Positions 33,010-51,315 of a DNA stretch of 64,000 bases are shown piece after piece. The notes beneath the pieces are model-generated. The model made no database searches. It was not told the DNA's origin and saw only the letters and a list, made by a program, of their open reading frames with translations. Both the position numbers and the translations under genes were made by a program. Every line of letters begins with the position of its first letter. The stretch's first letter is position 1. Source of the stretch: Microvirga mediterraneensis (GTDB lineage: Bacteria > Pseudomonadota > Alphaproteobacteria > Rhizobiales > Beijerinckiaceae); NCBI RefSeq assembly GCF_013520865.1, contig NZ_JACDXJ010000001.1, positions 2,657,001 to 2,721,000 of the forward strand. The letters run 5' to 3'.

Positions 33010-33051
33010 GCAAGAGAAAAGAAAACTGGCTCCACATGGGTGGAGCCAGTT
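33010..33051 (-). terminator. Rho-independent terminator of the RTX gene
   Basis: On the minus strand a perfect 11-bp stem (AACTGGCTCCA / TGGAGCCAGTT, positions 33024-33034 and 33041-33051) with a 6-base loop is followed by TTTTCTTTTCTCTTG. It lies about 40 bp past the RTX stop codon. Confidence 0.9.
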
Positions 33052-33089
33052 CGAACGGCTGAATTCCAGATATCTGAAGATTCTCGCTA

Positions 33090-33962: not shown

Positions 33963-34030
33963 CTTGGGAAGCTCCTGGTTAAACTTATAAAAGCCTTCGA
34001 GTAGATGATATGGGAAGAAAATGTTCCGCG

Positions 34031-34876
34031 TCATGCCCCCAAATGGGTATTTGAGGCGCGGCAGAGGTAGTAAATCCATGGATCTAACGATGTTGAAGAC
34101 CGATAATCTGCTTGCTGTCCATCGAGGCCATAGACATGGGTTACCTTAAATCCAGCTTCTTCCACCTGCTCGATCTGCTTCGGAACGGAGATGTAGTAGG
34201 TCATCAGCGAGTACTCGTGGCATTCATCGTTCATCAGGGCATATGTCTCGTTCTGCTCCTCATTCCTGGTGTTCTTCAAACTGTTCATGATCCCCAGGCT
34301 GTAGAGGATGGCTCTCTTGGTAAAGCGCAACGGCGTGATGACCGGGTGCGTGCCGACGAAGTGGGATAGTTCCCAAGATCTTCGGACCCTCGTATCCCGA
34401 TTATGGGATGAGAACACGAAGACGCCGTCATCGGCGAGAACGCGTCTGATCTCAGCAAGAATCTTCAGCCGGCCGGCATGATCGACGTAATCGATGCCAT
34501 TGAAGCTGAACATGACGAAGTCGAATGAAGCGGACGGGAATGCAGAGAGGTCGCGCGCATCGCATTCCTTGAATCGGACGTTCGGATAAATCTGGCGACA
34601 GCGTTGGATCATCCGCGGCGAGTAGTCGATGCCGATATAGTCCCTGCTCAAGCCCGTGAGATAACGAGTGGTCCTTCCGCCTCCGACGCCGATGTCGAGA
34701 ATTCTCTTGCCGGCAATCTCCGGTTCCAGGATCGACAGGATCGCAGCCTCTGGAGGCTGCAGCTTGTCCATCCGCCTGTAGCCCTCGATAACACGGCTTC
34801 TACTCCAGACCGGGCGGTTCTTCCTGTCCGCATGCAACGCCTGATTCACGCGCGTTCTCCTGCCTACGATCTTCAT
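34031..34876 (-). CDS. Class I SAM-dependent methyltransferase
   Basis: This is a predicted methyltransferase of about 281 residues. Motif I is GKRILDIGVGGGRTTRYLTG, followed by IGIDYSPRMIQRCRQIYPNV and the post-I acidic residue, then FVMFSFNGIDYVDHAGRLKI and LAEIRRVLADDGVFVFSSHN. Its closeness to wecC suggests it methylates a sugar or lipid-linked glycan, but this is inference. I use ATG 34876; a GTG at 34918 would overlap wecC by 17 bp, and neither has a strong Shine-Dalgarno. Confidence 0.8.
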   Translation of the reverse strand: MKIVGRRTRVNQALHADRKNRPVWSRSRVIEGYRRMDKLQPPEAAILSILEPEIAGKRILDIGVGGGRTTRYLTGLSRDYIGIDYSPRMIQRCRQIYPNVRFKECDARDLSAFPSASFDFVMFSFNGIDYVDHAGRLKILAEIRRVLADDGVFVFSSHNRDTRVRRSWELSHFVGTHPVITPLRFTKRAILYSLGIMNSLKNTRNEEQNETYALMNDECHEYSLMTYYISVPKQIEQVEEAGFKVTHVYGLDGQQADYRSSTSLDPWIYYLCRASNTHLGA

Positions 34877-34901
34877 GGTTGGAAGGTGAGATCCGCAGAT
34901 C

Positions 34902-36176: not shown

Positions 36177-37300
36177 GCGCTCAGTGACTCCGTAATGATG
36201 CCTGCGATCTTGATGGATGCGGTTCCATCCCCGTAAGGGAAGACCGCTTTCGCCCGATGCTGATAGTATTCCTCGTCGTCCAGTAAGGAGGACGCGACAT
36301 TGTAGATCTCATCGGGATCCGTCCCCACCAGGCTGACGGCTCCCGTGGCCAGAGCTTCCGGACGCTCGGTCGTTTCGCGCATGACGAGGACAGGACGTCC
36401 GAGGGCCGGACCCTCCTCCTGGATGCCTCCGGAGTCGGTCAGAATGATCTTCGACTTCTTCATGAGCCGAACCATGTCCACGTAGGGGACGGGTGGAACC
36501 AGATGAACGTTCGGATGTGATCCGAGGCGCGTCTGCACGACATCCCTCACATTCGGGTTGAGATGAACCGGATAGACGACCTGCACGTCATTCCGGCCGG
36601 CGAGGCGGGAAATGCCTTGGCAGATGCCTTCGAAGCCCGCTCCGAAGTTCTCTCTCCGGTGCCCTGTCACGAGAATGAGTGAACGGTCCGGATCAATCCC
36701 GTCCAGGGCCTCGATGGGTGACGACGCCCCCATCTCCTCAGCGTCGATCCTGTTGGAAACATGAAGGAGCGCGTCGATACCCGTGTTGCCGGTCACGTAG
36801 ATCTGGCCGCGGCGGCTGTATTCTCGTCCGAGGTTGTCAGCCGCGACTGTCGTCGGGGCGAAAAGATAATCAGCGATTGCATCGATCGTAACCCGATTGA
36901 ACTCTTCAGGCCATGGCTGGGATAGGTCGAACGATCGCAGACCCGCCTCGACGTGACCGATGCGCACCTTGCTGTAGAGGGCCGCCATGGCCGTTGCGAG
37001 TGCGGTCGTCGTGTCCCCGTGCACAAGGACGAGATCGGGCCTGTCGGCTTCCAGTACAGCGCTCATCTGGCTGATGATCGCACCCGTCAGCTCCGGAAGG
37101 CGCTGATTGGGCTTCATGACGTTGAGATCGATGTCCGGCTTTTCCCCGAAGACATCAAAGACTTGGTTCAGCATCTCACGGTGCTGACCCGTGACGACAA
37201 CGCCGACGCTGCATGTATTGCGCTCGCGTAGTGCTTTGACGACAGGAAGCATCTTTATGGCTTCTGGCCGGGTTCCGAATACGACAAGGATGCGCAGCAT
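36173..37300 (-). CDS. wecB: UDP-N-acetylglucosamine 2-epimerase (non-hydrolysing)
   Basis: WecB interconverts UDP-GlcNAc and UDP-ManNAc. The 375-residue protein begins RILVVFGTRPEAIKMLPVVK, the hallmark GTRPE motif, and continues with VVTGQHREMLNQVF, LVHGDTTTALATAMAAL, HVEAGLRSFDLSQPWPEEFN, and TDSGGIQEEGPALGRPVLVM. All of these are canonical. It feeds wecC, which overlaps its stop codon. With glmS-glmU at 3.4-6.8 kb, the whole route from fructose-6-phosphate to UDP-ManNAcA, apart from GlmM, is encoded in this window. Confidence 0.95.
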   Translation of the reverse strand: MLRILVVFGTRPEAIKMLPVVKALRERNTCSVGVVVTGQHREMLNQVFDVFGEKPDIDLNVMKPNQRLPELTGAIISQMSAVLEADRPDLVLVHGDTTTALATAMAALYSKVRIGHVEAGLRSFDLSQPWPEEFNRVTIDAIADYLFAPTTVAADNLGREYSRRGQIYVTGNTGIDALLHVSNRIDAEEMGASSPIEALDGIDPDRSLILVTGHRRENFGAGFEGICQGISRLAGRNDVQVVYPVHLNPNVRDVVQTRLGSHPNVHLVPPVPYVDMVRLMKKSKIILTDSGGIQEEGPALGRPVLVMRETTERPEALATGAVSLVGTDPDEIYNVASSLLDDEEYYQHRAKAVFPYGDGTASIKIAGIITESLSA

Positions 37301-37362
37301 TCACTTCGTCCTGATTAATAGATGATAGTTCTTTTGAGGTGGGTGCCCGGCCGGTGCTCCGC

Positions 37363-38142
37363 TCAATGGCCGCGCACCAGGCTTGAGAGCGCCAGCTTCG
37401 TGCTCTTCGCGAAATTGGCAAACATCGCGCGTGAGAGAAGAATGGCAAACGCGTAATTCGTGCTGGCATATCGCCAGAACATTCGGCGTGGCTCCTGAAG
37501 CAAGCGGTGCATCCATTCCAGGCCGAGCTTCTGCATCGGAGCCGGAGCGCGCGAAACTTTTCCGGCCAGAACGTCAAACGATCCGCCGACCCCCATCAAG
37601 AATGGCACGTTCAAGTGCGGAGCATGGGCGGCCAGGAAGTTTTCCTTGCGTGGCGTCGGCATGCCGATGAACAGACAATCGGCTCCGGATCGGTTGATCT
37701 CTTCGACGATGTCTCGTTCTTCGGATGTGGTGAAGTACCCGTTTCTCACACCTGCAAAGCTGAGACCGCTATAGCGGTTTCTCGCTACGGATGCCGCTCT
37801 TTGTACGATCTCCTCAGTGGCTCCGAGAAAGTAGGGGCGGAACCCTTGCTTCGAGCATTCTTTCAGGACCTCCTCCATGAGGTCGATCCCGGCCACGCGT
37901 TCCGGAACAGGAATGCCTTGAAGCCGGGCTCCGATAACGATCCCTGCGCCGTCGATCCCGATGATGTCGCTGTTGATCACGTCCGCCCTTAGAGCGGGGT
38001 CTGATTGCATTTTAACGAGCTTCGCAACGTTGATGGCGACATGCCTGATGCGCTTCCCATGGCGCATCGAATCGATGGCGCATTGAACCGTCTCTTCGGT
38101 GCTCAGGACATCAATGGGCGTGTCGAGGAACGTGACTCTCAT
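37363..38142 (-). CDS. WecG/TagA/CpsF-family glycosyltransferase (GT26)
   Basis: This 259-residue enzyme belongs to the family that transfers N-acetylmannosamine or its uronic acid to undecaprenyl-PP-GlcNAc. Features are the start VTFLDTPIDVLSTEETVQCA, VAKLVKMQSDPALRADVINS, DGAGIVIGARLQGIPVPERV, AGIDLMEEVLKECSKQGF, and CLFIGMPTPRKENFLAAHAP. Family members act at the inner face of the membrane. A UDP-ManNAcA donor is consistent with the adjacent wecB-wecC. A C-terminal extension (GLEWMHRLLQEPRRMFWRYA) is the usual membrane-associated tail. Confidence 0.9.
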   Translation of the reverse strand: MRVTFLDTPIDVLSTEETVQCAIDSMRHGKRIRHVAINVAKLVKMQSDPALRADVINSDIIGIDGAGIVIGARLQGIPVPERVAGIDLMEEVLKECSKQGFRPYFLGATEEIVQRAASVARNRYSGLSFAGVRNGYFTTSEERDIVEEINRSGADCLFIGMPTPRKENFLAAHAPHLNVPFLMGVGGSFDVLAGKVSRAPAPMQKLGLEWMHRLLQEPRRMFWRYASTNYAFAILLSRAMFANFAKSTKLALSSLVRGH

Positions 38143-38178
38143 GTAAACATCCTGAAGGTTATCCGGGTCGTATCGATG

Positions 38179-38913
38179 TTAGAATGCGTTGGTACGCCCG
38201 GTGAGCTCGGTGATCGCAGTGAGCAACAGAATCTTGCAGTCCAGGGCTAGGGACGCAGTACGGATGTATTCCAGATCGTACTGAACGCGGCGTTGCATGT
38301 CGCTTAGCTTAGGCGTCGCTCCGCGTGCGCCACTGACTTGCGCCAGTCCGGTTATGCCGGCACGAGCAAGGAAGCGATGCACATAAGTTGGAATTTCCCT
38401 CATATACTTTTCGTCGTGCGCGATAGCATGCGGGCGAGGCCCAATGAGGGACATCTCGCCCCGGATCACATTGATAAGTTGGGGAAGCTCATCCATGCTC
38501 GTTCTCCGGATGAGCCGCCCGATCGCAGTTACGCGACCATCGCCTTTGACGGCCTGCGGTACGAGCGGGTCGGCACCACAATCGACGTGCATGGAGCGGA
38601 ACTTCAGGATCTCGAAGGTCGTCTTCTCGGAGCTGTGCCGTTTCTGTCGAAAGATAACCGGCCCCTCGCTCGTCGCTTTGATCGCCAGGGCAATCATCAA
38701 GAGCAGCGGAGATGCCGCAATCAGAAGGAGGGTGGCTATGACGATGTCAAAAATTCGTTTCGTCGACGAGTGTAGATAGGGACTTACGCTCGGACGGTAA
38801 TCGTTGGAGTAATCGACCGTGATGACATCCCGCAGATGTTCGATCGGTCCGGCGGGAGAGAAGTCAACACTCTCAGCACTGTCTTTCCAATAGATGCCGT
38901 GACGCAGATCCAT
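38179..38913 (-). CDS. Initiating sugar-1-phosphate transferase (PHPT/bacterial sugar transferase family)
   Basis: This enzyme transfers a sugar-1-phosphate to undecaprenyl phosphate to start the repeat unit. The 244-residue form has one N-terminal hydrophobic segment (DIVIATLLLIAASPLLLMIA) and the catalytic module: FRQKRHSSEKTTFEILKFRS, TSMDELPQLINVIRGEMSLI, GPRPHAIAHDEKY, ARAGITGLAQVSGARG. It therefore represents the minimal C-terminal half of WbaP-like proteins, like WcaJ without the four-helix N-terminal part. The start at ATG 38913 has AGAAGGA 8 bases upstream. It is the first gene of the leftward operon. Confidence 0.9.
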   Translation of the reverse strand: MDLRHGIYWKDSAESVDFSPAGPIEHLRDVITVDYSNDYRPSVSPYLHSSTKRIFDIVIATLLLIAASPLLLMIALAIKATSEGPVIFRQKRHSSEKTTFEILKFRSMHVDCGADPLVPQAVKGDGRVTAIGRLIRRTSMDELPQLINVIRGEMSLIGPRPHAIAHDEKYMREIPTYVHRFLARAGITGLAQVSGARGATPKLSDMQRRVQYDLEYIRTASLALDCKILLLTAITELTGRTNAF

Positions 38914-39517
38914 GAAGCAAATCCTTCTCGGGATTATGCGCGATATCGCTCTTGCTCGCTCGTAACGAACTATCAAGTTTCATGCGTGTTTGGGTCAATT
39001 GAGAATAACGGTATCGCATATGAGCTTTTAGGTCGGATTATGATCATAAGGACTAAGTAATCGGGATTACGATGCGCCACCCGATCCTGTACTTGTGCCT
39101 TGTCGAGACCGCGTCAGGTTTCAGACGCGCTTCTGATCTACGCTCCCTGTCTTCACTGGATCAATGCAATGAAGACCCCGTTGGGCACGGTGGATCATGG
39201 ATACCGGCATTCTTCGGCCATGGTCCGCCACCCGGTTGCGGCGTAGTGCCGCCATAAAAAGAATCGAATAAAAATGCGCACAATCTGTGTCGAAGGACGA
39301 TCTCTTACCGGATGATGCAACCTACCCCGTCCGAGGTGTGAGAGGCCGATAAGCAGACTTAGTGGGTACACCTTCGTGGAGGCTACTTTCGCCAAGCGTG
39401 AAGGGGCATGTTTAAGGCGACTGCGTCTTCCATCGACGCAATCGCAGGGACCGGCTCGTTGATCAGCCGTGTCGAAACACCTGATCGAGACTTCGTCCCC
39501 TTGAGAGAAGAAGAAAC
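38914..39517. promoter_or_regulatory. Divergent control region between the two polysaccharide operons
   Basis: About 600 bp separate the leftward wec operon from the rightward lyase/export genes, and no ORF here has family-like sequence. A perfect 12-bp palindrome TTATGATCATAA (39038-39049) lies about 130 bp upstream of the sugar transferase start and is a candidate operator. Promoter boxes were not assigned. Confidence 0.4.
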
Positions 39518-40210
39518 ATGCTCGTGCCATTTGTAAAGCTTGGCGTCATCGGCATCTCCTTGGTGAATTGCCTGGATCCTGAATCCTTCAATCTTCATAA
39601 TGCAGGGCGCTCCTACAGCTATGCGTATGACGCGTCGGCGGACACGATGCGGTTCGAGGTGCGGGGCGGCGACCCGGCGGTGTTCGCGGCCTCGGGCACG
39701 CAGCGCTCGGAGGTGTCGAGCGGCAAGCACTTCGAGTTCGGCCAGACCTACACGATCAGCTACAAGTTCATGATCGAGCCGGGGGCGACGAACACCGCCG
39801 ACTGGCTGGTGATGGGCCAGACCCACGCGTCGGAGGACGCGGGCGACTATTCCGGCCCGCCGCCCTTCGCGGTCGAGCTGGTCGGCGAGAAGATGCGCGT
39901 CGTCGGGCGCTATTCGAAGGAGGCGGTGACCACCGCCGGCAACACGACCTTCATGAACCTGTACCAGGACAGCGCCGACATCCAGCGCGGCAAGTGGTAC
40001 GACATGCAGATCACCCTGCGCTTCGATCCGGGCGGCAACGGCCAGCTCGACGTGTGGCGCGACGGCGTGCAGATCGTCGATTACAACGGCTCCCTGGGCT
40101 ATAACGACCAGGTCGGCCCGTACTGGAAGAACGGCGTCTACCGCGAGGATGCCCCCGAAAGCATGGCCATCAAATACGGCGCCATCAAATGCGAAGAGAG
40201 CAGGAAGTAA
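39518..40210 (+). CDS. Heparin-lyase-I-like / polysaccharide lyase family protein
   Basis: This 230-residue protein has the beta-jelly-roll features of the heparin lyase I/PL20-like group: QRSEVSSGKHFEFGQTYTIS, YKFMIEPGATNTADWLVMGQ, RGKWYDMQITLRFDPGGNGQ, LDVWRDGVQIVDYNGSLGYN and YWKNGVYRED. The fold is thought to cleave or bind uronic-acid polymers. The N-terminus (MLVPFVKLGVIGISLVNC) is short and hydrophobic but not a good signal peptide. Base use is oddly mixed: the first about 90 bp resemble the AT-richer gap upstream, while the remainder is strongly GC-rich in third positions. The Shine-Dalgarno GAGAAGAAG supports ATG 39518. Confidence 0.68.
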   Translation: MLVPFVKLGVIGISLVNCLDPESFNLHNAGRSYSYAYDASADTMRFEVRGGDPAVFAASGTQRSEVSSGKHFEFGQTYTISYKFMIEPGATNTADWLVMGQTHASEDAGDYSGPPPFAVELVGEKMRVVGRYSKEAVTTAGNTTFMNLYQDSADIQRGKWYDMQITLRFDPGGNGQLDVWRDGVQIVDYNGSLGYNDQVGPYWKNGVYREDAPESMAIKYGAIKCEESRK

Positions 40211-40354
40211 GTGATCCCGGACATTCCCTTAGGGGTTACTCCTTCTGTGTCTTTCGGTTCGCACAATGAACCTCCAAGTCCCCATAGTTGAACTCGACAA
40301 CGCTGATGGCGACTTATTTATTGTTAGGGCGAAGAGTTAAGGGCAGGCGGGCGC

Positions 40355-41359
40355 ATGCTAGATAGGCCAGAGCGGATCAAATTCGAGACTACGACATATG
40401 GGCCTGAGCAACAATCATCCAATGACTTGGCTGATCTGCTGCGGCCCCTGATGAGCCACTGGCTCCTTGTTGCGATTGCGACAGCAATCTGCATGGTGAT
40501 TGCAGTCATCTATCTCATGATTGCGCCCGTCCGTTACGCGGCGACGGCTCAGATGATCGTCGATACGAACCGGCCGCAAAGCTCGCAGCCATCCGGGGGA
40601 CTGGATAATCCACTGAATGCTGCCGATATTGAAAGCCAGATCGCCATCATCCGTTCTGGCAGCGTCGCCAAGGCCGTGGTCCAAAGTCTGGACCTGACGA
40701 GAGACAAAGATTTCTCGAAGCCCGAGTTCGGCCTCAAAAGCTTTGTGCCATCCTTCGTAAGTTCGATCCTCAGCTCGAACCGCACCGAGGATGCGGAGGC
40801 GGCCGCTGAGCGCACGCTTCAACTCGCGATCATCAAGCTTCAGCGCTCTCTGGACGTCCGCCGGATCGGGATAAGTCACGCGATCGACATCGAGTTTAGG
40901 GACGCGAGCCCTACTAAGGCCGCTCAAATCGCCAATACCGTGGCCGAAACCTATCGCTCCAGCCAGATCGAAGCGCGAAGCCAGATGATGCGGAACGCCA
41001 ACGCCTGGCTTGAGGATCGTCTATCCGTCATTCGTGCTGAGATGCTGGCAGCCGAGCGGGCAGCGCAGGACTTCAAGGCACAAAGTAAGAACCTGAATTC
41101 CAGCGCGACCTTGCTTGAGCTCGAAAGCAATGCGCAATCGCAAAGAAGGCTGTATGAACGATTCATGGAACAGCATCTGGAAACAAGCCAGCAGCTCTCG
41201 TTCCCCTCGCCCGAGGCAAGAATCATCACATTCGCGTCTCCGCCGCTGAACAAAAGCGAGCCCAAGTCGCTCATCGTACTTGCACTGGGGGCATTGGTGG
41301 GGTTCGCCTGCGGGGCAAGCATAGCATTCTACCGGGATCGTACGGATCGATACTCTTAA
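40355..41359 (+). CDS. Wzz/chain-length-determinant-family protein
   Basis: This is a polysaccharide co-polymerase-like inner-membrane protein of 334 residues. A cytoplasmic N-terminus leads to a first membrane helix (WLLVAIATAICMVIAVIYLM) and the Wzz domain (APVRYAATAQMIVDTNRPQS). A periplasmic coiled-coil region follows (IEARSQMMRNANAWLEDRLS; LESNAQSQRRLYERFMEQHL). The second helix is SLIVLALGALVGFACGASIA. The protein stops 11 residues later, without the Walker motifs and tyrosine cluster of BY-kinases. A GGCAGGCGGG site precedes ATG 40355. It likely sets chain length together with the export protein downstream. Confidence 0.87.
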   Translation: MLDRPERIKFETTTYGPEQQSSNDLADLLRPLMSHWLLVAIATAICMVIAVIYLMIAPVRYAATAQMIVDTNRPQSSQPSGGLDNPLNAADIESQIAIIRSGSVAKAVVQSLDLTRDKDFSKPEFGLKSFVPSFVSSILSSNRTEDAEAAAERTLQLAIIKLQRSLDVRRIGISHAIDIEFRDASPTKAAQIANTVAETYRSSQIEARSQMMRNANAWLEDRLSVIRAEMLAAERAAQDFKAQSKNLNSSATLLELESNAQSQRRLYERFMEQHLETSQQLSFPSPEARIITFASPPLNKSEPKSLIVLALGALVGFACGASIAFYRDRTDRYS

Positions 41360-41422
41360 TGTTCTCGTCCGTGGTGAAGTTTCAGTAGCGATAGATGCCA
41401 CTCATTGATGGATGGTTTGAGG

Positions 41423-42700
41423 ATGACGATCGGCGTTAGATGGATGTGCCTGTCACGTTCGCATCAGGTTTTCCAAACCGGAGTCCTGAGACATTGTGCC
41501 TTCGCCGCGCTCGCCACGGTTTTCACGCTCGGGTTCTCGGCTGAAGGCAAGGCGGATTTTCTTTTGGGCGTGGGAGATGTCGTTGAGGTCTCGATCGCCG
41601 GCATTCCGGACCTGAGGGCCCGGGCGATGGTCAACACCGATGGAAACGTCATCATTCCGATCATCGGTAGCGTTTCCGCCGCTGGACTCGATATCGCCTC
41701 CCTGCGGAAGAAGCTCCAGGATGAGTTTTCAACCCGCGCCATTAGCGTTCGGTCCGCCGATGGGCGGACTGTGATCACCCCCGTGTCTCCCGAGGAAGTC
41801 TCCCTCACCATTGCGGAATATAGGCCGGTTTACATGTCCGGTGATCTTGCCAGGGCCGGGGAGGTTGCCTATCGCCCGGGCATGACGGTCAGGCAGGCGG
41901 TATCGGTGGCCGGCGGCTATGATGTTGTTCGGTTTCGCGTGAACAATCCGCAGCTGGAAGCGGTCACTTTCAGCGCCGAGTACACGACTCTTGAAGGAGA
42001 GCTCGCCCAGGCCTTGGAGAAGAAGAAGCAGCTTCAGCTGGAGCTTGGTATCAAGCCCGAGGAAGGGGAGGATTCCGAGCTTCCCAGGACACCCGCGGCG
42101 CAGGCCGCCGCATCGCTCGTGGCGCAACAATTCCAGACACAGCGCGAGGACTTTGACCGCGAGGTGAAGCACCTCCAGGATACCTACAAGCGCGTTTCCG
42201 TTCGCACCGCTTTTCTCAATCAACAGAAGGACAGGGAAGAGGAGGGCATGAAGGCCGATGTGGAAGAGCTGGATAGGGCAAAGGCCCTGCTCGAGCGAGG
42301 AACCACATCGACCCAAAGGGTATCCGAGGCCCGTCGAGCCATGTTGGCATCTGCAACGCGAGCTCTCCAAACCGGCGCAGAGGCGGCTCAAGCATCTCTG
42401 GTGCAATACGAGGCCGATCGCGCTGTCGAAAAGCTCCAGGAGCAACGGCACTTACGGTTGCTCGAGGACCTTCAGGAGACCAATACGCGCTTGATCAGGA
42501 TCCGGGCGCAGCTGAATGCCGCCAAGCAGAAGCTGGCTTTCGTCGGCGCAATGAAGTCGACGTGGTCGACCGCGAGCGGACCGAATGCTCGAATTATGAT
42601 TCATCGTAATGTCAACGGCGAAAGCAAGTCGTTTCTGGGAACTGGGGCGACTCTTCTAATGCCGGGTGACGCCGTGGAAGTTGCTCTTCAGGGCGATTGA
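41423..42700 (+). CDS. Polysaccharide export protein (ExoF/Wza-like, poly_export and coiled coil)
   Basis: This is an exported protein of about 425 residues. A signal peptide (HCAFAALATVFTLGFSAEGK) precedes the poly_export domain: LGVGDVVEVSIAGIPDLRAR, VNTDGNVIIPIIGSVSAAGL and VSLTIAEYRPVYMSGDLARA, then an SLBB-type stretch GEVAYRPGMTVRQAVSVAGG. Residues about 190-370 are a long charged coiled coil (for example FDREVKHLQDTYKRVSVRTA), more like rhizobial ExoF than enteric Wza. No lipobox is seen. It may bridge the inner-membrane Wzz protein and an outer-membrane pore. In-frame starts also exist at 41405 and 41408. Confidence 0.85.
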   Translation: MTIGVRWMCLSRSHQVFQTGVLRHCAFAALATVFTLGFSAEGKADFLLGVGDVVEVSIAGIPDLRARAMVNTDGNVIIPIIGSVSAAGLDIASLRKKLQDEFSTRAISVRSADGRTVITPVSPEEVSLTIAEYRPVYMSGDLARAGEVAYRPGMTVRQAVSVAGGYDVVRFRVNNPQLEAVTFSAEYTTLEGELAQALEKKKQLQLELGIKPEEGEDSELPRTPAAQAAASLVAQQFQTQREDFDREVKHLQDTYKRVSVRTAFLNQQKDREEEGMKADVEELDRAKALLERGTTSTQRVSEARRAMLASATRALQTGAEAAQASLVQYEADRAVEKLQEQRHLRLLEDLQETNTRLIRIRAQLNAAKQKLAFVGAMKSTWSTASGPNARIMIHRNVNGESKSFLGTGATLLMPGDAVEVALQGD

Positions 42701-43203
42701 TCCGGCAGGTCGTTGAACTTCCACAGGGCGAATAGCCCTGTGCTTGATGACACATCGGTCTGTTCAAGGCGGTCCATAGGGTCGGAATCGGCTCCGAGAC
42801 GAAGCCAGAGATCCGTCATGTCGCTAGCCGCAATGCTACCTGGGCACGACGGGGTTTCAGGATTGCCTTGCGATAGCGGGTCTTTCATCCCACAATGCTG
42901 AACTGGCGATTGGGAACCTCTCAAGGAACTCTGAACTGTTGTTCAAGATTCACGAGGAAGAGAGCGAGTCCTGATGACTTGATTCAATTGCTTCAGGTTT
43001 TAGCGTGCTCGGTCTCAACCTATCGCTTTGCGTCACTGATGGTTTGGTCTTGAAGTGGATCTTTCCATCAAGAAGACACGATTGTCGCTCAGAAAGAATC
43101 TGCTTTGCACTGACGCGGCTCCTCGAAATTGTCTGGCGCGCTAAGATTCCAGTTTCGCGCACCTTTGCGTGCGAAACGGGTCGCTAGCTTTGCGTTCGAT
43201 GCG
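42701..43203. other. Gap between export gene and convergent deacetylase gene
   Basis: These 500 bp hold no supported gene. A hairpin CACAGGGC-GAATA-GCCCTGTG lies at 42722-42742 just after the export gene but lacks a T run. A second, imperfect hairpin GTTTCGC...GCGAAAC is at 43152-43177 near the deacetylase stop. Either could be a weak terminator. Confidence 0.4.
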
Positions 43204-43962
43204 TTAGCCGGCCGTGACCTCCCTGAGTGTCTTGACAGCGAGACCGGCCTGCTTGGCTTTGATCAGAAGCTCCTCAAGCCCATGCGTTCTGCAACCGTGC
43301 ATGGAGGGCGTATCGGCGAGATCATGAGTGTACACCACCAGCCACTTCCGTTGTAAGGCTGCTTGCTCGATCAGTTCGTTGATATCGAGAAAGCCAGGCT
43401 TGTTAGGAGAGTATCCTGCCGCTTGTGTGAGAGAGAGGTTGACTCCAGCAACTTCAGAAAGGTCGATCCAGTTTAAATTGACACCCGTGCCGACACCACG
43501 GGCAGTTTTGAACTGGCGAGCGACAGCCAATTTGCTCTGCAGGCTGACATGGTTATAGGGGAAGGCAAAACTGTCCGGCGCCTCACCATTCAACCGTTCG
43601 CACAGAAATTCACGGTTCTTCTCGATGGATCTTTCGAACTCTCCAGTGGATACTTCCAAGGCACTATAATGATCGTAGGTATGGCAGCCGATCTCGTGCC
43701 CTGCCTCCTGCGCCTCCAAAAGATCCGTCTCTGTAAACTGCTCCATTCCCATATAGGTCTTGTCGCAGAACGCGCCGCTCGCGAAGTATGTTGCGTGAAC
43801 ACCGTACTGAGCGAGGATTGCTCCTCCGATTGTCCAGGCCGTGCGCGGGAAGTCGTCGAAGCAAATGCTCAGGACGCCACAATCAAGGCGCAGGAAACGT
43901 GGCTTGATAAAGAATTTATGCCCAATCTTTCTGTTCAAACGCTGGTATACAGTAAGATCCAC
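43204..43962 (-). CDS. Polysaccharide deacetylase (NodB/CE4 family)
   Basis: This is a predicted metal-dependent deacetylase of N-acetylated sugars, 252 residues from GTG 43962, which has GAGG 7 bases upstream. NodB motif 1 is diverged but keeps the Asp pair (LSICFDDFPRTAW), motif 2 supplies the metal-binding His pair (GHEIGCHTYDHYSALEV), and later segments are FAFPYNHVSLQSKLA and KWLVVYTHDLADTPSMHGC. No signal peptide is evident from this start, so it may act in the cytoplasm or be exported in another way. A plausible substrate is a GlcNAc/ManNAc-containing unit from this locus. The open frame extends to 44088. Confidence 0.85.
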   Translation of the reverse strand: MDLTVYQRLNRKIGHKFFIKPRFLRLDCGVLSICFDDFPRTAWTIGGAILAQYGVHATYFASGAFCDKTYMGMEQFTETDLLEAQEAGHEIGCHTYDHYSALEVSTGEFERSIEKNREFLCERLNGEAPDSFAFPYNHVSLQSKLAVARQFKTARGVGTGVNLNWIDLSEVAGVNLSLTQAAGYSPNKPGFLDINELIEQAALQRKWLVVYTHDLADTPSMHGCRTHGLEELLIKAKQAGLAVKTLREVTAG

Positions 43963-44297
43963 TTTATGACCTCGGTGGTTTGAGCCTTGTCCTATGGGCC
44001 GCCTGATCAAAATAGCCCTTGCTGAGCAATAAAGGTCTTGGATTTTGGAGTTAGTCGAATGCGCATTCGGTCGATAGGTGCCATCCAACGGCTCAGTTTT
44101 GCACGATGAGATGCCTTTCGGCCGCGATCAAGGCCCGAGAGAGCGGGGTTGGGAGCAACCTGCTCCGGTTTGAGGCCAAAAATAGCGCCTCGCAGCTCCA
44201 TGATTCGCTTATACCGAATGGCCAGAAGAGTTACTGTTCACGATCATGGCGGTGAGCTAAACTTCGCAGGTCCCGTATAGCTCAGGGGAATTTGCGG
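43963..44297. other. Divergent gap between deacetylase and the six-gene cassette
   Basis: This 335-bp gap probably carries the promoter of the rightward cassette. A 64-codon leftward frame (44007-44201) exists but has no recognisable features and no good start signal, so I do not call it a gene. Confidence 0.4.
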
Positions 44298-44966
44298 ATG
44301 ATCTCAGGTGGTACGTTATCCTCTGCCGCTCGTTTCATGGGGATTGATCTTGAGACTTCGCCAGGTGTGCTCGTCCCTCGGGAGGAGACGGTTCTCCTCG
44401 CAAAGGCGGCAATCAATATCCTGAAAGAGCGGGGAGGCGCCGCTCGTGTCATCGACATGTGCTGCGGCTCCGGCAATCTCGCGTGTGCAGTTGCCATTGC
44501 GCAGGAGCATGCGACCGTGTGGGCGAGTGATCTAACCGACGAAACCGTTTCTCTCGCGAAGCGCAATGTAGAAAGGCTGGGCTTGGCGCCCCGGGTTTAC
44601 GTGCGACAGGGAGACCTGTTCGAAGGTTTAGCAGCCGATCAACTGCATGAGAAAATCGATCTGGTCGTATGCAATCCCCCCTATATCTCGACATCGCGTC
44701 TTTCGGGCGAGAAGTCTTATCTGCTCGCCACTGAGCCGAAAGAGGCATTCGACGGCGGGCCTTACGGTCTCTCCATTCATCAGCGCGTCATCAGGGACGC
44801 GTTGATTTATCTAAAGCCTGGCGGCTGGATTGCACTTGAGTTCGGGCAGAGCCAGGAGAAGCAAGTTCACTCCCTTATCGTTAGAACTCGTCACTACGGC
44901 AGCATTCAATTGATGAGTGACACTCACGGCGTTCCACGTGTGATAATTGCGCAGAAGATGCAATAG
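44298..44966 (+). CDS. PrmC/HemK-like N-methyltransferase lacking the N-terminal domain
   Basis: This 222-residue class I methyltransferase carries the NPPY motif of enzymes that methylate planar amide or exocyclic amine nitrogens: VDLVVCNPPYISTSRLSGEK near residues 115-130. The SAM-binding motif I is VIDMCCGSGNLACAVAI, and TSPGVLVPREETVLLAKAAI matches the RPETE-like segment of PrmC. The helical N-terminal domain with which PrmC grips release factors is absent, so the target is probably something else. AGGGG lies 9 bases before ATG 44298. It is the first gene of a rightward cassette, 346 bp ahead of the acyltransferase-like gene. Confidence 0.78.
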   Translation: MISGGTLSSAARFMGIDLETSPGVLVPREETVLLAKAAINILKERGGAARVIDMCCGSGNLACAVAIAQEHATVWASDLTDETVSLAKRNVERLGLAPRVYVRQGDLFEGLAADQLHEKIDLVVCNPPYISTSRLSGEKSYLLATEPKEAFDGGPYGLSIHQRVIRDALIYLKPGGWIALEFGQSQEKQVHSLIVRTRHYGSIQLMSDTHGVPRVIIAQKMQ

Positions 44967-45312
44967 TATCGGTGTTCGGCCAGCTCTAAAATTCGAGCTC
45001 CTCATTTCCATCTCTGTTGCGGCAGAAGGCTTGGATCGAGGCCGAGAGGCCTCCCGTAACATTTCGTTCTCGAACCGAACGGTCTTGGCAATTTTCCTAA
45101 AGCGGTAGAAGTCGGGTTTTAGTAATTGCTCACCTAATACCTTTCACTATTTCGAACAGGACCCGTTGGAAAGTCCCAATCGTACTCCCTCGAAGGAGGT
45201 ATCGTCCGGAATAGAGCATTGCAGTGCTGGCGTTCACGGCAAACAATGCTTGGCATTAGTCGGTCCGGCAGGGTCATGAAAGCAGTCGAAATCTTTGGAT
45301 TATTTCCGGAAG
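44967..45312. other. Gap between methyltransferase and acyltransferase-like gene
   Basis: No gene is visible in these 346 bp. The sequence is AT-richer than the flanking genes and could hold a separate promoter for the following five genes. A small imperfect palindrome CCCTCGAAGGAGG occurs near 45188. Confidence 0.4.
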
Positions 45313-46443
45313 ATGAGTGAAATTCGTCACCTTGCAGGAGAAGATCTGCCCCAAGTCGCGGACTTGTTTCAGCGTGTTCTGCTGAAAAGGTCCGTAACGG
45401 CGCGGGATTCGCTCATCACATATCTGAAAGAGCTATTCGTCGATCCCGTCGAAGCGAGGTCTGGATTTTGCTCGCACGTCTATGTCAAGCCTGATGGGGA
45501 GATTGCGGGTTTTATCGGGGTTCTCGCACTTCCAATGCGTCTCCATGGGGCTCCCGTCATGGCTGCCGTCGCGTCTTGCCTGATGGTCGATAACCATGCG
45601 GAGAATCCACTCGTCGGCGCGCGGCTTCTCCGCACTTTTCTGGCCGGGCCGCAGGATATTTCCTTGAGCGAGACAGCAAGCGATACCGCAGTTGCCATGT
45701 GGAGGGCACTTCGCGGCATTACTGTTCCTTCCTATAGCCTGGACTGGGTTCGTGTCATCAATCCGGCAGGTTTCCTCGTTGAGCTGTTTGCAGGCCGGTT
45801 GAGATTCGCTCGGAGTCTGATGCCGCTCTCGCGCTGCATCGATGCATGGGCTCGGCACAGAGCGAATGGGGCAGCTCTTCGTTGGTCAAGTGTTGCCGCA
45901 GGATCCCATACGCCGGGCTCGGGCAATTACAGCGATATACCGGTCGATGCGGAGAAGATGGCGGAACTCGTAGCGCAATTCGCCTCGCGGTTTTCGCTTC
46001 ACCCAAATTGGCCGAGCAGTGATCTCTCCCGTGTCCTGATCGATTCAGAGAGAAAGGACCTGTACGGTAAGGCCCAGTACAGAATGGTCATATCTCATGA
46101 CGAGACGCCTGTAGGCGCCTTTATCTATTACGGCCGCGAGCGACGGATAGGGCACGTCCTGCAAGTCCTGTCAGCTCCTGGTCGATCGGGAGTTGTCATC
46201 GATCGATTGATCGATCATGCGGCCAGATCCGGTGTGGTTGCGCTTCAAGGTCGCACTCAGCCTGAATTGCTGGACGCTATGCTGACGCGCCGATGTGCCT
46301 TTGCGCATCGATCGGCTACAGTTGTCCATGCTCGCAATCCCATCTTCCTGAAGCCCTTCCTGAGCGGTGAGGCATTCTTTAACGGGCTAGCCGGGGAGAC
46401 ATGGACCCGATTGATCGGAAATAGCTGGAGCGCCGAGCAGTGA
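45313..46443 (+). CDS. GNAT-like acyltransferase of unknown substrate
   Basis: This protein of about 376 residues has acyltransferase-like features: an N-terminal block IRHLAGEDLPQVADLFQRVL and a strand-loop region GEIAGFIGVLALPMRLHGAP with MAAVASCLMVDNHAENPLVG. These are typical of a GNAT acyl-CoA site, in which a pyrophosphate loop would follow. A second, C-terminal block (LYGKAQYRMVISHDETPVGA, FIYYGRERRIGHVLQVLSAP) looks like another GNAT-type half, so the protein may be a tandem GNAT. The acyl donor could be the acyl carrier protein encoded two genes downstream. The start is uncertain; a TTG at 45295 is also in frame. Confidence 0.6.
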   Translation: MSEIRHLAGEDLPQVADLFQRVLLKRSVTARDSLITYLKELFVDPVEARSGFCSHVYVKPDGEIAGFIGVLALPMRLHGAPVMAAVASCLMVDNHAENPLVGARLLRTFLAGPQDISLSETASDTAVAMWRALRGITVPSYSLDWVRVINPAGFLVELFAGRLRFARSLMPLSRCIDAWARHRANGAALRWSSVAAGSHTPGSGNYSDIPVDAEKMAELVAQFASRFSLHPNWPSSDLSRVLIDSERKDLYGKAQYRMVISHDETPVGAFIYYGRERRIGHVLQVLSAPGRSGVVIDRLIDHAARSGVVALQGRTQPELLDAMLTRRCAFAHRSATVVHARNPIFLKPFLSGEAFFNGLAGETWTRLIGNSWSAEQ

Positions 46444-46502
46444 GAGACCGTAGGCGATCACGTTGATTTATTCATCTTCCGGTATCATGGGAGCGCTTCG
46501 AC

Positions 46503-48452
46503 ATGTGCGGTATAGGGGGCTTTTTCGGAACTGGCGTTGCTCCGGAAAGGTCGCGATCGATACTCCAGGGAATGGTCAATGCCGTCGAACATCGTGGCCC
46601 GGATGATCGGGGCATCTTTGTTGGCGATGGGGTGGGGCTTGGACATACGAGGCTGTCGATTGTCGATATTTCCGACGGACATCAGCCGATGTCGAGCGGG
46701 AGCGGGCGGTTCTGGATCAGTTTCAACGGCGAAATCTTCAATCACGTTGAACTCCGCCAAGAACTCATGGAGCGTGGGCGCCGCTTCCGGACGAACTCCG
46801 ATACCGAAGTCATCCTGCACCTATTCGAAGAGCATGGAGCAGACTGCGTTTCCCTTTTGAATGGCGATTTCGCTTTTGCGATCTGGGACGGTCACGAGCG
46901 CCGTATGACTCTTGCGCGGGATCGCATGGGCGTTCGTCCGCTCTATTACGCAAGTCACAGGGATACGGTATTCTTCGCGTCGGAGGTTAAGGCAATCCTG
47001 CGCGTTCCCGGAATCGACGCAGAAATCGATCCGTTCGCTCTTGATCAGATCTTCACCCTGTGGGCTCCGGTCGCGCCAAGAACCATATTCAAGAACATAT
47101 CGGAACTTCCGCCGGCGCACATCATGGCGATCGACGCGAATGGGCTGCGCTCCAGGCCCTATTGGCAACTGTCGTTTCCTGACCGGCAAACGACAAGCCG
47201 TACCGTCTCGATGAAGGACAGGTCGGAAGAGCTTCTCGATCTCTTGGATGACGCCACACGCATAAGATTGAGAGCTGATGTACCGGTGGGAGCCTATTTA
47301 TCGGGTGGTTTGGATTCATCGATCGTCAGTGCGCTTGCAGCACGCACGATATCGAGCCGTCTGCGGACGTACTCGGTGACATTCGCCTCCGCCGAACATG
47401 ATGAAAGCTCATATCAGGACGAAGTCGTGCGTGCTCTTGGAACTGAGCACAGTTCGGTAGAATGCCTTCCGCAAGACATCGCTCGGATATTTCCCGATGT
47501 TGTGCGGCATATGGAGACGCCTGTTGTCAGGACCGCTCCGGCGCCGCTCTTCATGTTGTCGGGTCTGGTGCGCGATCACGGGTTTAAAGTCGTCCTGACA
47601 GGCGAGGGGGCTGACGAGGTTTTCGCGGGCTATGATATCTTCAAGGAGGCGGCAGTCCGTCGCTTCTGCGCCCGCCAGCCACGCTCCCGCTTCCGGAGCC
47701 ACTTGTTCAGGCGGCTCTATCCCTACCTGCCGAACCTGAGCCAGCAGACTCCGGAATATCTGACTTCGTTCTTCTGCGGCGGTGACGATGCATCGGATAG
47801 TCCCCTGTTCTCTCATCTGCCTCGTTTCCGCAGTACATCTGCCGCCAAGATCTTCTTCTCCGGAGATTTCCGCGCAACGCTGGGAGGATTCGATGCCGCT
47901 CAGACCTTGATCGACCGGCTGCCGGCGGATTTCAAGCGCTGGGCCCCCTTGCACCAGGCGCAGTATATTGAAACCACGTTCCTCCTGCCTGGGTACATCC
48001 TCTCCAGCCAGGGAGATCGCGTCGCGATGGCTCATGGGGTGGAAGGGCGCTTCCCATTTCTCGATCATCGTGTCGTGGAGTTTGCCGCCAAGCTGCCGCC
48101 CGGGGCGAAGCTCAAGGGGCTTAGCGAGAAGCATATCCTGCGCGAGGCAACCAAGAACTTGCTGCCTCCGTCGATAGCTTGGCGCACCAAGCAGCCGTAT
48201 CGTGCACCGGACTGCGATCCCTTCAGCATGGAAGGTGCGCCCGACTATGTTGCGGAAATGCTTTCACCGCGCGCTGTTGCCCAGGTCGGCATTTTCAGCC
48301 CACAGGCGGTTGAGAAGCTTCATGCAAAGTGCCGGCGGCAGAACTCCGCCGGATTCCGCGACAGCACGGCGTTCGTCAGCATCCTGTCGACGCAACTATG
48401 GCAACAGGCTTTCGGTGCATCGACCAAGTACCAGAGTACGTATGCCGCCTAG
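46503..48452 (+). CDS. asnB: Asparagine synthase (glutamine-hydrolysing) family amidotransferase
   Basis: This 649-residue protein has both AsnB domains. The class II glutaminase starts MCGIGGFFGTG with Cys2 as nucleophile, followed by VEHRGPDDRGIFVGDGVGLG, HTRLSIVDISDGHQPM and FNGEIFNHVELRQ. The synthetase domain has the ATP pyrophosphatase loop VGAYLSGGLDSSIVSALAAR and VVLTGEGADEVFAGYDIFKE. In polysaccharide and natural-product clusters such homologues often amidate a carboxylate other than aspartate. GGGAG precedes the ATG. It is followed by the ACP gene after 20 bp. The symbol is for the family; the in vivo substrate is not known. Confidence 0.9.
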   Translation: MCGIGGFFGTGVAPERSRSILQGMVNAVEHRGPDDRGIFVGDGVGLGHTRLSIVDISDGHQPMSSGSGRFWISFNGEIFNHVELRQELMERGRRFRTNSDTEVILHLFEEHGADCVSLLNGDFAFAIWDGHERRMTLARDRMGVRPLYYASHRDTVFFASEVKAILRVPGIDAEIDPFALDQIFTLWAPVAPRTIFKNISELPPAHIMAIDANGLRSRPYWQLSFPDRQTTSRTVSMKDRSEELLDLLDDATRIRLRADVPVGAYLSGGLDSSIVSALAARTISSRLRTYSVTFASAEHDESSYQDEVVRALGTEHSSVECLPQDIARIFPDVVRHMETPVVRTAPAPLFMLSGLVRDHGFKVVLTGEGADEVFAGYDIFKEAAVRRFCARQPRSRFRSHLFRRLYPYLPNLSQQTPEYLTSFFCGGDDASDSPLFSHLPRFRSTSAAKIFFSGDFRATLGGFDAAQTLIDRLPADFKRWAPLHQAQYIETTFLLPGYILSSQGDRVAMAHGVEGRFPFLDHRVVEFAAKLPPGAKLKGLSEKHILREATKNLLPPSIAWRTKQPYRAPDCDPFSMEGAPDYVAEMLSPRAVAQVGIFSPQAVEKLHAKCRRQNSAGFRDSTAFVSILSTQLWQQAFGASTKYQSTYAA

Positions 48453-48472
48453 AGTTTGAATGGAGAGAGAAG

Positions 48473-48742
48473 ATGCCTGCTACTATTGCAAATGAACTTC
48501 GCAGCTTCATCGTCGATAACTTCCTTTTTGGCGATACGAGCCGCCCGGTTTCCGATGACGTGTCATTGATCGAAAGTGGAATCGTCGATTCAACCGGGAT
48601 CCTGGAGCTCGTGGCCTTTCTGGAGGAGAGGTACGGGATCGCAGTTGCCGACGCGGAAATCATCCCTGCCAATCTCGATACGATCAGCAGCTTGTGCGCC
48701 TACATAGACCGCAAAACCACCGCGGGAGTACGGGCTGCGTGA
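48473..48742 (+). CDS. Acyl carrier protein
   Basis: This 89-residue protein has the ACP four-helix pattern. The phosphopantetheine attachment serine lies in SLIESGIVDSTGILELVAFL (DST in place of the usual DSL), followed by EERYGIAVADAEIIPANLDT and SSLCAYIDRK. The start at ATG 48473 has GGAGAGAGA upstream; a longer frame upstream is inside asnB. It sits between asnB and an AMP-dependent ligase that could load it, so it probably carries the acyl or aminoacyl intermediate of this cassette rather than serving fatty acid synthesis. Confidence 0.88.
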   Translation: MPATIANELRSFIVDNFLFGDTSRPVSDDVSLIESGIVDSTGILELVAFLEERYGIAVADAEIIPANLDTISSLCAYIDRKTTAGVRAA

Positions 48743-48751
48743 TCGGAAGAT

Positions 48752-50314
48752 ATGAGTGGAGAAGATTATATGCGCGTCGAGGAATTTCTGCGCGAGAGTG
48801 CGCGCAAGCACGGCCGCAAGGAGGCCTTGATTACCAACAGTCGAAGGCTCACTTATGATGAACTCGACGACCTCTCTGAGCGGATGGCATGGTCTCTTGC
48901 GCAGAATGGCGTAGGACGCGATGATCGTGTGGTCATATTCATGGAGAATATCTGGGAGGCGGTGGTTTCGATCTTCGCCGCCCTCAAGGTTGGAGCCACA
49001 TTCAGTCCCATCAATGCAACGACAAAGACCGACAAGCTGGCGTACATTCTCCAGAACTGTCGGGCGAAGGCTGTCATAACACAGTCTAAGTTGAGTGGTG
49101 TTGCTGCTGCCGCAGTGGAAATGTCGCCTACCGTTGAGCTCACCGTCGTCGCCGGAGACGGGGAGAACAAGCTACCGTTCGCCCTGTCCTTCTCGGATTG
49201 CGTTTCGCATCGGTTCTCGGCGCCCTTGCGCCATGGCGGGATCGATATGGATCTTGCCATGCTGATCTATACATCCGGATCGACGGGGCGGCCCAAAGGC
49301 GTGATGATGACGCATCGCAATATGGAAGCTGCCGCGACATCGATCTCGACGTATATCCAGAATGTGTCATCCGACATCATCCTCAACGTGCTCCCGATCG
49401 CATTCGATTATGGTCTTTACCAACTCATCATGTCGATCAAGCTCGGAGCTACCCTCGTGCTTGAGAAGTCCTTCGCTTTTCCTCAGGCAATTTTCGCTGT
49501 CATGCGGCGGGAACACGTGACCGGGCTGCCGCTCGTCCCTACCATGGCGGCGCTGATCCTTCAGATGAAGGATCTGGTGCCGGGTTCGTTTCCTGATCTC
49601 CGCTATATTACCAACACGGCCGCGGCCCTGCCGCCGTCTCATATCGCGCAGTTAAGGAAGCTTTTCCCCGACGTTCGGATCTATTCGATGTACGGTCTGA
49701 CGGAATGCAAGCGTTGCACCTATCTTCCGCCGGAGAAGCTGGACGTTAAGCCCGACTCTGTGGGAATTGCCATTCCCAACACCGAGGCCTTCGTCGTGGA
49801 TGATGACGGTAAGAAGGTGCCCTCAGGTGTGATCGGGGAACTCGTCATCCGCGGGCCACACGTCATGCAGGGATATTGGGAGGACGATGAGGCTACAAGA
49901 AAAGCACTCAGGCCTGGCCCGCACCCCTGGGAGAGGGTTCTTTACACGGGAGACCTGTTTAGAGCCGACGAGGATGGATATCTCTACTTCGTGGGACGTA
50001 AGGACGACATCATCAAGACCCGCGGTGAGAAGGTTGCACCCAAGGAGGTTGAAGCCGTCATCCATGCCTGCCCAGGTGTCATCGAGGCCGTTGTCGTGGG
50101 TGTTCACGACCCCATCCTAGGACAGGCCCTCCATGCCATCGTCGTCGCACAAAGTGAGACCCTTACGGAGCAGAGTATCATTCGTCACTGTGCAGCCCAT
50201 CTGGAAGACTACATGGTTCCCAAATCGGTAGTATTCCGCATGGAGTTGCCTAAAACCGACACCGGCAAGGTCAGCCGCAGACTTGCTGCGGAGACACTGG
50301 AGCAAGTTCAATGA
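48752..50314 (+). CDS. AMP-dependent acyl/aminoacyl ligase
   Basis: This 520-residue adenylate-forming enzyme activates a carboxylic acid with ATP and probably loads it on the adjacent ACP. Motif A3 is AMLIYTSGSTGRPKGVMMTH, A5 is IYSMYGLTECKRCTYLPPEK, A7 is LYTGDLFRADEDGYLYFVGR, A8 is KDDIIKTRGEKVAPKEVEAV, and A10 carries the catalytic Lys in LPKTDTGKVSRRLAAETL. An alternative start at ATG 48770 has GGAGAAG at good spacing and may be the true one. It resembles ligases annotated near exosortase-linked polysaccharide loci, but no exosortase is visible here. The stop overlaps the next gene by 4 bp. Confidence 0.88.
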   Translation: MSGEDYMRVEEFLRESARKHGRKEALITNSRRLTYDELDDLSERMAWSLAQNGVGRDDRVVIFMENIWEAVVSIFAALKVGATFSPINATTKTDKLAYILQNCRAKAVITQSKLSGVAAAAVEMSPTVELTVVAGDGENKLPFALSFSDCVSHRFSAPLRHGGIDMDLAMLIYTSGSTGRPKGVMMTHRNMEAAATSISTYIQNVSSDIILNVLPIAFDYGLYQLIMSIKLGATLVLEKSFAFPQAIFAVMRREHVTGLPLVPTMAALILQMKDLVPGSFPDLRYITNTAAALPPSHIAQLRKLFPDVRIYSMYGLTECKRCTYLPPEKLDVKPDSVGIAIPNTEAFVVDDDGKKVPSGVIGELVIRGPHVMQGYWEDDEATRKALRPGPHPWERVLYTGDLFRADEDGYLYFVGRKDDIIKTRGEKVAPKEVEAVIHACPGVIEAVVVGVHDPILGQALHAIVVAQSETLTEQSIIRHCAAHLEDYMVPKSVVFRMELPKTDTGKVSRRLAAETLEQVQ

Positions 50315-51315
50315 GTCTGACCACAGCGGCCAAGAAAAGAGATATGTCGGATCCGATGCTTGCGATTGATCCGGCCGTTGAAGCGGACCGCATCGCTTCC
50401 CTGCTTCGGACGCAGGTTCAGACGACCTTGAGGAAGCGCGGTCTGGTGTTGGGCTTATCGGGCGGGATCGATTCCAGCCTGTGCGCCGCACTCGCGGTGC
50501 GGGCTGTCGGTCCAAAGAATGTATTCTGCCTCCTGATGCCGGAAAACGACTCCGATCCGGACAGCCTGAGGCTTGGAAAGCTTGTGGCAGAGACTTATGG
50601 AATCCGGAGCAAGGTCGAGGATATCGGTTCGTCCCTTGACGCCATGGGCTGTTACACGCGGCGAAATGAGCTCATTCGCGACATTGTTCCGGAATACGGT
50701 GAAGACTGGTCGTGCAAGGTCGTCATCGCCAACGGCGCAGAGGGAAGCGGCTACAATTTCTTCTCGTTGGTGGTGGAGAGCCCGGAGGGAGAGACGCGTC
50801 GAGTGCGGATGCCGCCGGCGGCCTATCTCGGCATCGTTGCCGCTACGAATATGAAGCAGCGGACGCGGAAGATGATGGAATATTTCCATGCGGAACGCCT
50901 GAACTATGCTGTCATAGGAACGCCAAACCGGCTGGAATACGATCAGGGCTTCTTCGTCAAGTATGGCGATGGGGCTGCCGATGTGAAGCCGATTGCCCAT
51001 CTCTATAAAACCCAGGTTTATGAATTGGCCGCTTATCTGGGCGTCCCGGATGAGATCCTCCGTCGCCCTCCGACCACGGATACCTGGTCCTTGGCACAGA
51101 CCCAGGAGGAATTCTATTTTGCCCTTCCTTATGATCAGATGGATCTCTGCCTCTACGGATTGAACCATTCCATCCCGGCAGCGAAAGTGGCGGCTGCTGC
51201 AGGATTGTCCGCCGCCGTCGTCGAGAATGTCTGGAGAGACATCATCGCCAAGCGGAAGGCGACGCAGTACTTGCATATGAAGCCGCTCTTGGCCGGGGAG
51301 GTGGGCGAAATATAG
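50311..51315 (+). CDS. NadE-like ammonia/amide ligase (NAD+ synthase family)
   Basis: This 334-residue protein of the N-type ATP pyrophosphatase superfamily shows the PP-loop LVLGLSGGIDSSLCAALAVR and NadE motifs GTPNRLEYDQGFFVKYGDGA and DVKPIAHLYKTQVYELAAYL. Classical ammonia-dependent NAD synthetases are about 275 residues; this one carries roughly 60 extra residues between the PP-loop domain and the NMKQRTRKMMEYFHAERLNY helix (including CKVVIANGAEGSGYNFFSLV and VESPEGETRRVRM). It starts inside the ligase stop (ATGA overlap), so it is coupled to the ACP/ligase genes. Either it is a true NAD synthetase in an odd place, or it forms an amide on a pathway intermediate, which I favour. Confidence 0.78.
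   Translation: MSLTTAAKKRDMSDPMLAIDPAVEADRIASLLRTQVQTTLRKRGLVLGLSGGIDSSLCAALAVRAVGPKNVFCLLMPENDSDPDSLRLGKLVAETYGIRSKVEDIGSSLDAMGCYTRRNELIRDIVPEYGEDWSCKVVIANGAEGSGYNFFSLVVESPEGETRRVRMPPAAYLGIVAATNMKQRTRKMMEYFHAERLNYAVIGTPNRLEYDQGFFVKYGDGAADVKPIAHLYKTQVYELAAYLGVPDEILRRPPTTDTWSLAQTQEEFYFALPYDQMDLCLYGLNHSIPAAKVAAAAGLSAAVVENVWRDIIAKRKATQYLHMKPLLAGEVGEI

Follow-up and report, generated by a model that had tools for sequence, protein, structure and literature searches.

A recurring gene cassette in Microvirga mediterraneensis and related bacteria with a VinN-like ligase, a dedicated carrier protein and two amide synthetases

The window, a 64,000-nucleotide stretch of the Microvirga mediterraneensis genome, contains a cassette of six genes that encode a PrmC-like methyltransferase, a GNAT-like protein, an AsnB-type amide synthetase, an acyl/peptidyl carrier protein (ACP), an adenylate-forming ligase and a NadE-like amide synthetase. 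The cassette is a real, conserved unit that recurs beyond chance, because the same gene set is found in many genera. Its constant core is made up of the NadE-like enzyme, the ligase and the ACP, nearly always with AsnB. The ligase has a pocket similar to that of VinN and probably activates the beta-carboxyl of an aspartate-type acid. On a tentative reading of these sequences, the cassette may build an amidated, aspartate-derived acyl group on its dedicated carrier and then hand this group to an amine. For a gene set found across rhizobia and related bacteria, this reading offers a pathway that can be tested and names its first substrate. If it is right, two housekeeping folds, NAD synthetase and release-factor methylase, would have been recruited to surface or metabolite chemistry.

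In the sample collected by a profile scan with a GNAT alignment (the best 80 of 248 loci, with flanks of up to 10 kb and some shorter stretches), AsnB, the ACP, the ligase and the NadE-like gene are contiguous in 71 of 80 loci. Contiguous genes are those that occur in this order within 6 kb, inside the stretch examined. Relative to the GNAT gene, this block is colinear in 16 of the 71 loci, convergent in 50 and divergent in 5, at a distance of 13 to 4239 bp (median 61 bp). One locus (L076) contains AsnB, the ACP and the ligase and then reaches the contig end. The remaining eight loci have the block elsewhere in the genome, where the NadE-like gene is adjoined by the ligase, the ACP and AsnB in 8/8 cases (L159–L166).

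The GNAT-based sample is biased by its query, so the NadE-like gene was surveyed as an independent starting point in 397 genomes of the order. This survey contains 31 copies in 30 genomes and 18 genera, and its tallies include the window itself. The ligase and the ACP lie alongside the NadE-like gene in 31/31 loci and AsnB in 29/31 (absent from L150 and L151). GNAT homologues are present in 20 loci and PrmC homologues in 12. The gene set is thus shared far beyond close relatives. Of the six-gene set described in the initial annotation, the core block recurs, but the six genes are not obligate partners: a PrmC-like gene is present in 49 of the 80 GNAT-picked loci, and no GNAT homologue is seen in 11 of the 31 NadE-picked loci. 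In the class-wide sample, few genomes carry the NadE-like gene (3/385). Among the control genomes, that of Methanosarcina acetivorans contains a match above the threshold of this NadE subfamily model.

A second layout, NadE-AsnB-ligase-ACP, is found in eight loci (L132, L136, L143, L144, L145, L149, L153 and L158). PrmC is present in seven of these, and GNAT is not detected in any of the eight. Codon-scored gene models were used for gene calling in five loci. In the four gene-called loci with the second layout, the gene directly upstream of NadE encodes a thioesterase in two (L144 and L158) and an adenylation-thioesterase protein in the other two (L132 and L145). The transferase seems to be exchangeable.

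In the window, all six open reading frames lie on the forward strand in the order originally proposed. The intergenic gaps are 346, 59, 20, 9 and −4 bp in gene order, and the 346-bp gap sets the PrmC-like gene apart from the other five. The tight spacing noted for the last genes is also found, with an ACP-ligase gap of 27 bp if the ligase starts at 48770 instead. Pfam and NCBIfam scans assign five of the six proteins to methyltransferase/HemK, Asn_synthase plus glutaminase, PP-binding, AMP-binding and NAD_synthase types. Literature searches, which left most subscription papers out of reach, returned no paper describing this gene set, in line with the earlier view that it is undescribed.

The ligase (48752–50314, + strand) carries the evidence for the first substrate. 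At full length, its best matches among solved structures are nonribosomal peptide synthetase chains, the first of which has a pair of adenylation domains, together with VinN (3wvn, 254 bits). When the pocket segment alone is compared, VinN leads the solved structures with 97 bits, against 44 for the next match. The aligned segments of the window ligase and VinN are AFDYGLYQ and SWDFGLYK, TNTAAALP and TNSAAALP, and MYGLTECKR and MYGQTECKR, with TECKR identical between the two. The equivalent of VinN D230 is D219, which is Asp in 92 of 112 distinct places after the removal of duplicates. The equivalents of F231 and S299 are conservative rather than identical (Y220 in 112/112 places and T289 in 92/112). 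K330 and R331, which in VinN sit in a shortened beta13–beta14 loop, align without gaps to K320 (92/112) and R321 (112/112).

According to excerpts of a review (PMC11253843), D230 of VinN contacts the beta-amino group, and F231 and S299 face a loop that carries K330 and R331. Partial text of a second paper assigns Asp230 to the alpha-amino group and Ser299 and Arg331 to the alpha-carboxyl of beta-methyl-aspartate, which is activated at its beta-carboxyl (PMC7756342). Excerpts of a third describe a VinN-type enzyme that activates L-Asp, in an orientation explained by the Arg (PMC12186527). The preferred substrate of VinN, in the portions available, is 3-methylaspartate. Since R321 is invariant and D219 is present in 92/112 places, a second carboxylate seems to be needed by all members of the ligase group and an amine by most. 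The original proposal that the ligase loads the ACP agrees with a VinN-type pocket next to a type II carrier, which fits ligase-to-carrier logic.

The 20 ligases without D219 form one group of 19 in the ligase tree, which was made by a quick method and has long branches, plus L134. All 20 retain R321. A ligase is present in 72 of the 80 GNAT-picked loci, and 57 of these are D-type and 15 non-D. PrmC accompanies 41/57 D-type and 0/15 non-D ligases. At least three polysaccharide markers lie near 36/57 D-type and 0/15 non-D ligases; the markers are homologues of genes drawn from the window and in part from the sampled loci themselves, which makes their count somewhat circular and blind to glycan genes of other families. 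The 15 non-D loci are all colinear, without PrmC and without any polysaccharide marker.

The catalytic motifs are conserved in all four core enzymes. The ACP (48473–48742, + strand) has a DS(T) attachment site, and its nearest solved relatives are type II peptidyl carriers, with DltC-type PDB matches among them. AsnB (46503–48452, + strand) is of the glutamine-dependent type and contains Cys2 and SGGLDSS. In the motif-row counts, as in the comparison of D-type and non-D ligases, two places are counted twice (L170 = L150, L171 = L151). Across the AsnB rows, the glutaminase Cys2 is present in 98/110, with a gap at this position in the other 12. The synthetase motif SGG.DSS is present in 110/110 rows, one of which has T for the last S. 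The nearest solved chain is the hydroxyamidotransferase 7ylz. The second and third NCBIfam matches of AsnB are both below cut-off (TIGR03108, 445.9 bits against 816.9; TIGR03104, N-acetylglutaminylglutamine amidotransferase, 390.2 against 570.1). The available portions of two papers on glutarimide antibiotics propose that an AsnB-type enzyme amidates malonate at its free carboxylate while it is bound to an ACP (PMC4853412, PMC10574677). Excerpts of another place AsnB-type enzymes in hydroxamate warhead clusters (PMC5719088).

The GNAT-like protein (45313–46443, + strand) matches no Pfam or NCBIfam model. Its AlphaFold2 model (predicted local distance difference test score 91.1) has a tandem, two-domain GNAT fold of the Eis/NMT-like kind. 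It is presumed to be an acyltransferase that takes its acyl group from the cassette ACP. More than one GNAT match is present in 37/80 loci, and a second, diverged GNAT-like protein lies inside the polysaccharide locus of L045 (L045:6594-7838, − strand).

The NadE-like protein (50311–51315, + strand) scores 518.6 bits against NF002048 (the PRK00876 subfamily), above the cut-off of 313. It retains the ATP-pyrophosphatase motif GLSGGIDSS and the segment GT.N..E...GDG.AD...LYK. Between its two matched parts is an insertion of about 53 residues (15 residues in 2e18 stand opposite 68 profile positions). The C-terminal HKR of 2e18, a motif that binds the NAD precursor, is unmatched. The genome encodes two more candidates with an NAD_synthase domain, in frames of 581 and 692 amino acids, and a housekeeping NadE identity is disfavoured by these candidates. 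Because of the gene context, the insertion and the other NAD_synthase copies, amidation of nicotinate adenine dinucleotide is disfavoured as the main role of this predicted amide synthetase.

The PrmC-like protein (44298–44966, + strand), an optional member, is without most of the PrmC N-terminal domain. Its score against TIGR03534 is 175.9 bits, below the cut-off of 199.1, with the match starting at model position 52; it is above the HemK subfamily cut-off. The NPPY amide-methylase motif is kept in the window and in 61/61 PrmC-like rows. A full PrmC is encoded elsewhere in the genome (G000:C1:406339-407094, 268.1 bits). A housekeeping PrmC identity is disfavoured by this second gene.

In the proposed pathway, the ligase would take L-aspartate or a closely related acid, adenylate its beta-carboxyl and load it onto the ACP, with D219 holding the alpha-amine and R321 the alpha-carboxylate. 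AsnB would then convert the exposed alpha-carboxylate to an amide with nitrogen from glutamine, comparable to the amidation of ACP-bound malonate in the glutarimide systems. The NadE-like enzyme would carry out a second carboxylate-to-amide conversion. In loci that have it, the PrmC-like enzyme may add an N-methyl group to an amide, just as PrmC methylates glutamine. The two-domain GNAT would take the group off the ACP and pass it to an amine, and in this genome the acceptor would most likely be an amino sugar of a precursor of the neighbouring polysaccharide. The sequences themselves show which genes make up the set, how far it is conserved, how the pocket matches and which catalytic motifs are kept; the substrates, the succession of reactions, what the NadE-like and PrmC-like enzymes do and the acceptor are inferred.

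A more specific version of this pathway is unlikely as a whole. It would be a new carrier pathway through which bacterial polysaccharides acquire beta-linked aspartate in the form of N-methylated amides (isoasparagine type). The NadE fold of NAD synthesis would serve as a dedicated amide synthetase, the PrmC fold of release-factor methylation would serve as a small-molecule amide N-methylase, and the sister clade without D219 would make an amino-free diacid version.

The polysaccharide locus (27572–44088) lies beside the cassette and is not part of it. Scans of the window proteins identify a flippase-like protein, glycosyltransferases, WecB, WecC, WecG/TagA-type and WcaJ-type proteins, lyase-like enzymes, Wzz, Wza and an HfsH-like deacetylase, and the cassette stands at the end of the locus. 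The locus also encodes heparinase II/III-like and polysaccharide-lyase-like proteins (27572–29545 and 39518–40210) and an RTX calcium-binding repeat protein (33090–34079, − strand). At least three polysaccharide markers lie near 44/80 GNAT-picked loci; a glycan acceptor is therefore compatible with the window but is not universal.

Several observations weigh against the aspartate-amide pathway. Two amide synthetases are more than the scheme needs. Two loci from one genus (L150 and L151) keep NadE, a ligase without D219, the ACP and GNAT and have no AsnB within about 10 kb, so AsnB is not strictly required. AsnB is above the asparagine synthase cut-off (516.9 bits against 267.1), and the PDB relatives of the GNAT-like protein use coenzyme A donors, going by their descriptions. 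No polysaccharide marker lies near 36/80 loci, or near 21/57 D-type loci. These marker-free loci make a free product a serious, if somewhat unlikely, rival. The same carrier chemistry would then release a small molecule, such as a peptide-like amide comparable to N-acetylglutaminylglutamine amide, and the polysaccharide genes would be mere neighbours. The replacement of GNAT by a thioesterase in the four gene-called loci of the second layout is consistent with release, as is the third-ranked, sub-cut-off match of AsnB to TIGR03104. In contrast, the window cassette closes a polysaccharide locus, and at least three markers are present in 32/35 convergent PrmC-bearing loci. A different diacid on the ligase is quite unlikely. 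The acid would be glutamate or a 3-substituted aspartate, or an amino-free diacid in the clade without D219, and the amide would differ accordingly. The loss of D219 in 20/112 ligases with R321 kept throughout agrees with this, as does the preference of VinN itself for the methylated acid in the partial sources; the window ligase, however, carries every one of the VinN-type residues (D, aromatic, hydroxyl and KR).

Amidation of a uronate is still more doubtful. The NadE-like enzyme, AsnB or both would act on UDP-linked N-acetylmannosaminuronic acid (UDP-ManNAcA), and the ligase, ACP and GNAT would add a separate acyl group. AsnB-type uronamide enzymes do occur in O-antigen loci, and WecB and WecC are encoded in the window locus, L056 and L066, with WecB at the edge of L010. 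Across the sample, WecB and/or WecC homologues lie near only 3/80 loci (L010, L056 and L066; flanks of up to 10 kb), and both synthetases are kept where no polysaccharide marker is nearby. The suggestion in the initial annotation that ManNAcA is the natural amidation target is unlikely as a general role on these counts, although it is possible in this genome. That housekeeping PrmC, NadE and AsnB genes lie together by chance without a common pathway is extremely improbable. Each gene singly belongs to a common family, but the co-occurrence counts, the true PrmC and the two additional NAD_synthase-domain genes disfavour this explanation.

It is very unlikely that the cassette branches from the ligase-amidotransferase cassette associated with XrtA/PEP-CTERM. 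Among NCBIfam models, the ligase scores best against TIGR03098 (463.8 bits), and TIGR03108 is the second match of AsnB. Both scores are below cut-off (592.35 for TIGR03098), and the genome has no exosortase (PF09721) match at E <= 0.001. Twenty regions around TIGR03098 matches were hand-picked from 40 matches with cassette members left out; eight (L210–L217) are over the cut-off, and L218 and L229 are shorter. No NadE, GNAT or PrmC homologue is found in any of the 20. The XrtA-type ligases form a separate clade from the cassette ligases (seven rows in the tree). Membership is rejected on these scores, the exosortase result and the differing gene content. The Asp and Arg pocket positions are nevertheless present in 27/27 XrtA-type or near-XrtA ligases (L172–L198; 17 over the cut-off), which read TEAFRS or TESFRS, with FRS where the cassette has mostly KRC. 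This suggests that XrtA-type ligases also load an amino diacid, and both sets may begin with a common reaction and then diverge. The literature searches showed no assigned role for the XrtA/PEP-CTERM-associated ligases, and the shared pocket gives a first substrate guess for them. In the window's family, L226:7683-10803 (− strand) contains three consecutive genes, for an ACP, a ligase and an Orn/DAP/Arg-type decarboxylase dependent on PLP (pyridoxal phosphate), a trio like VinL, VinN and VinO. The XrtA-like ligase of this trio, between the ACP and the decarboxylase, scores below the TIGR03098 cut-off; VinN, in the portions of text available, is likewise accompanied by a PLP decarboxylase.

Among known systems, NAD synthetase of the PRK00876/NF002048 type shares its subfamily score and ATP-pyrophosphatase motif with the cassette protein, which differs in its extra residues and in the ligase and ACP that adjoin it in every NadE-picked locus. 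The D-alanyl (Dlt) and glycyl (AlmEFG) systems also activate an amino acid, carry it on a small carrier protein and move it to a surface molecule. They differ from the cassette in having no amide synthetases and other transferase folds. Glutarimide antibiotic systems (cycloheximide and kin) have an AsnB-like enzyme beside a discrete ACP, as in the cassette; unlike the cassette, they load malonyl by an acyltransferase and pass it to a polyketide synthase, and the available portions of the papers mention no VinN-type ligase, NadE or GNAT (PMC4853412, PMC10574677). The VinN/VinL (vicenistatin), BolO, AfcQ and FlvN systems share with the cassette a VinN-type pocket and an acid loaded on a stand-alone carrier. 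In VinN-type systems a PLP enzyme removes a carboxyl group from the loaded acid, according to partial text (PMC7756342), whereas the cassette has AsnB and NadE instead, and no such decarboxylase is among the 20 window proteins scanned. By analogy, the cassette may work like VinN/VinL joined to an AsnB-type amidotransferase.

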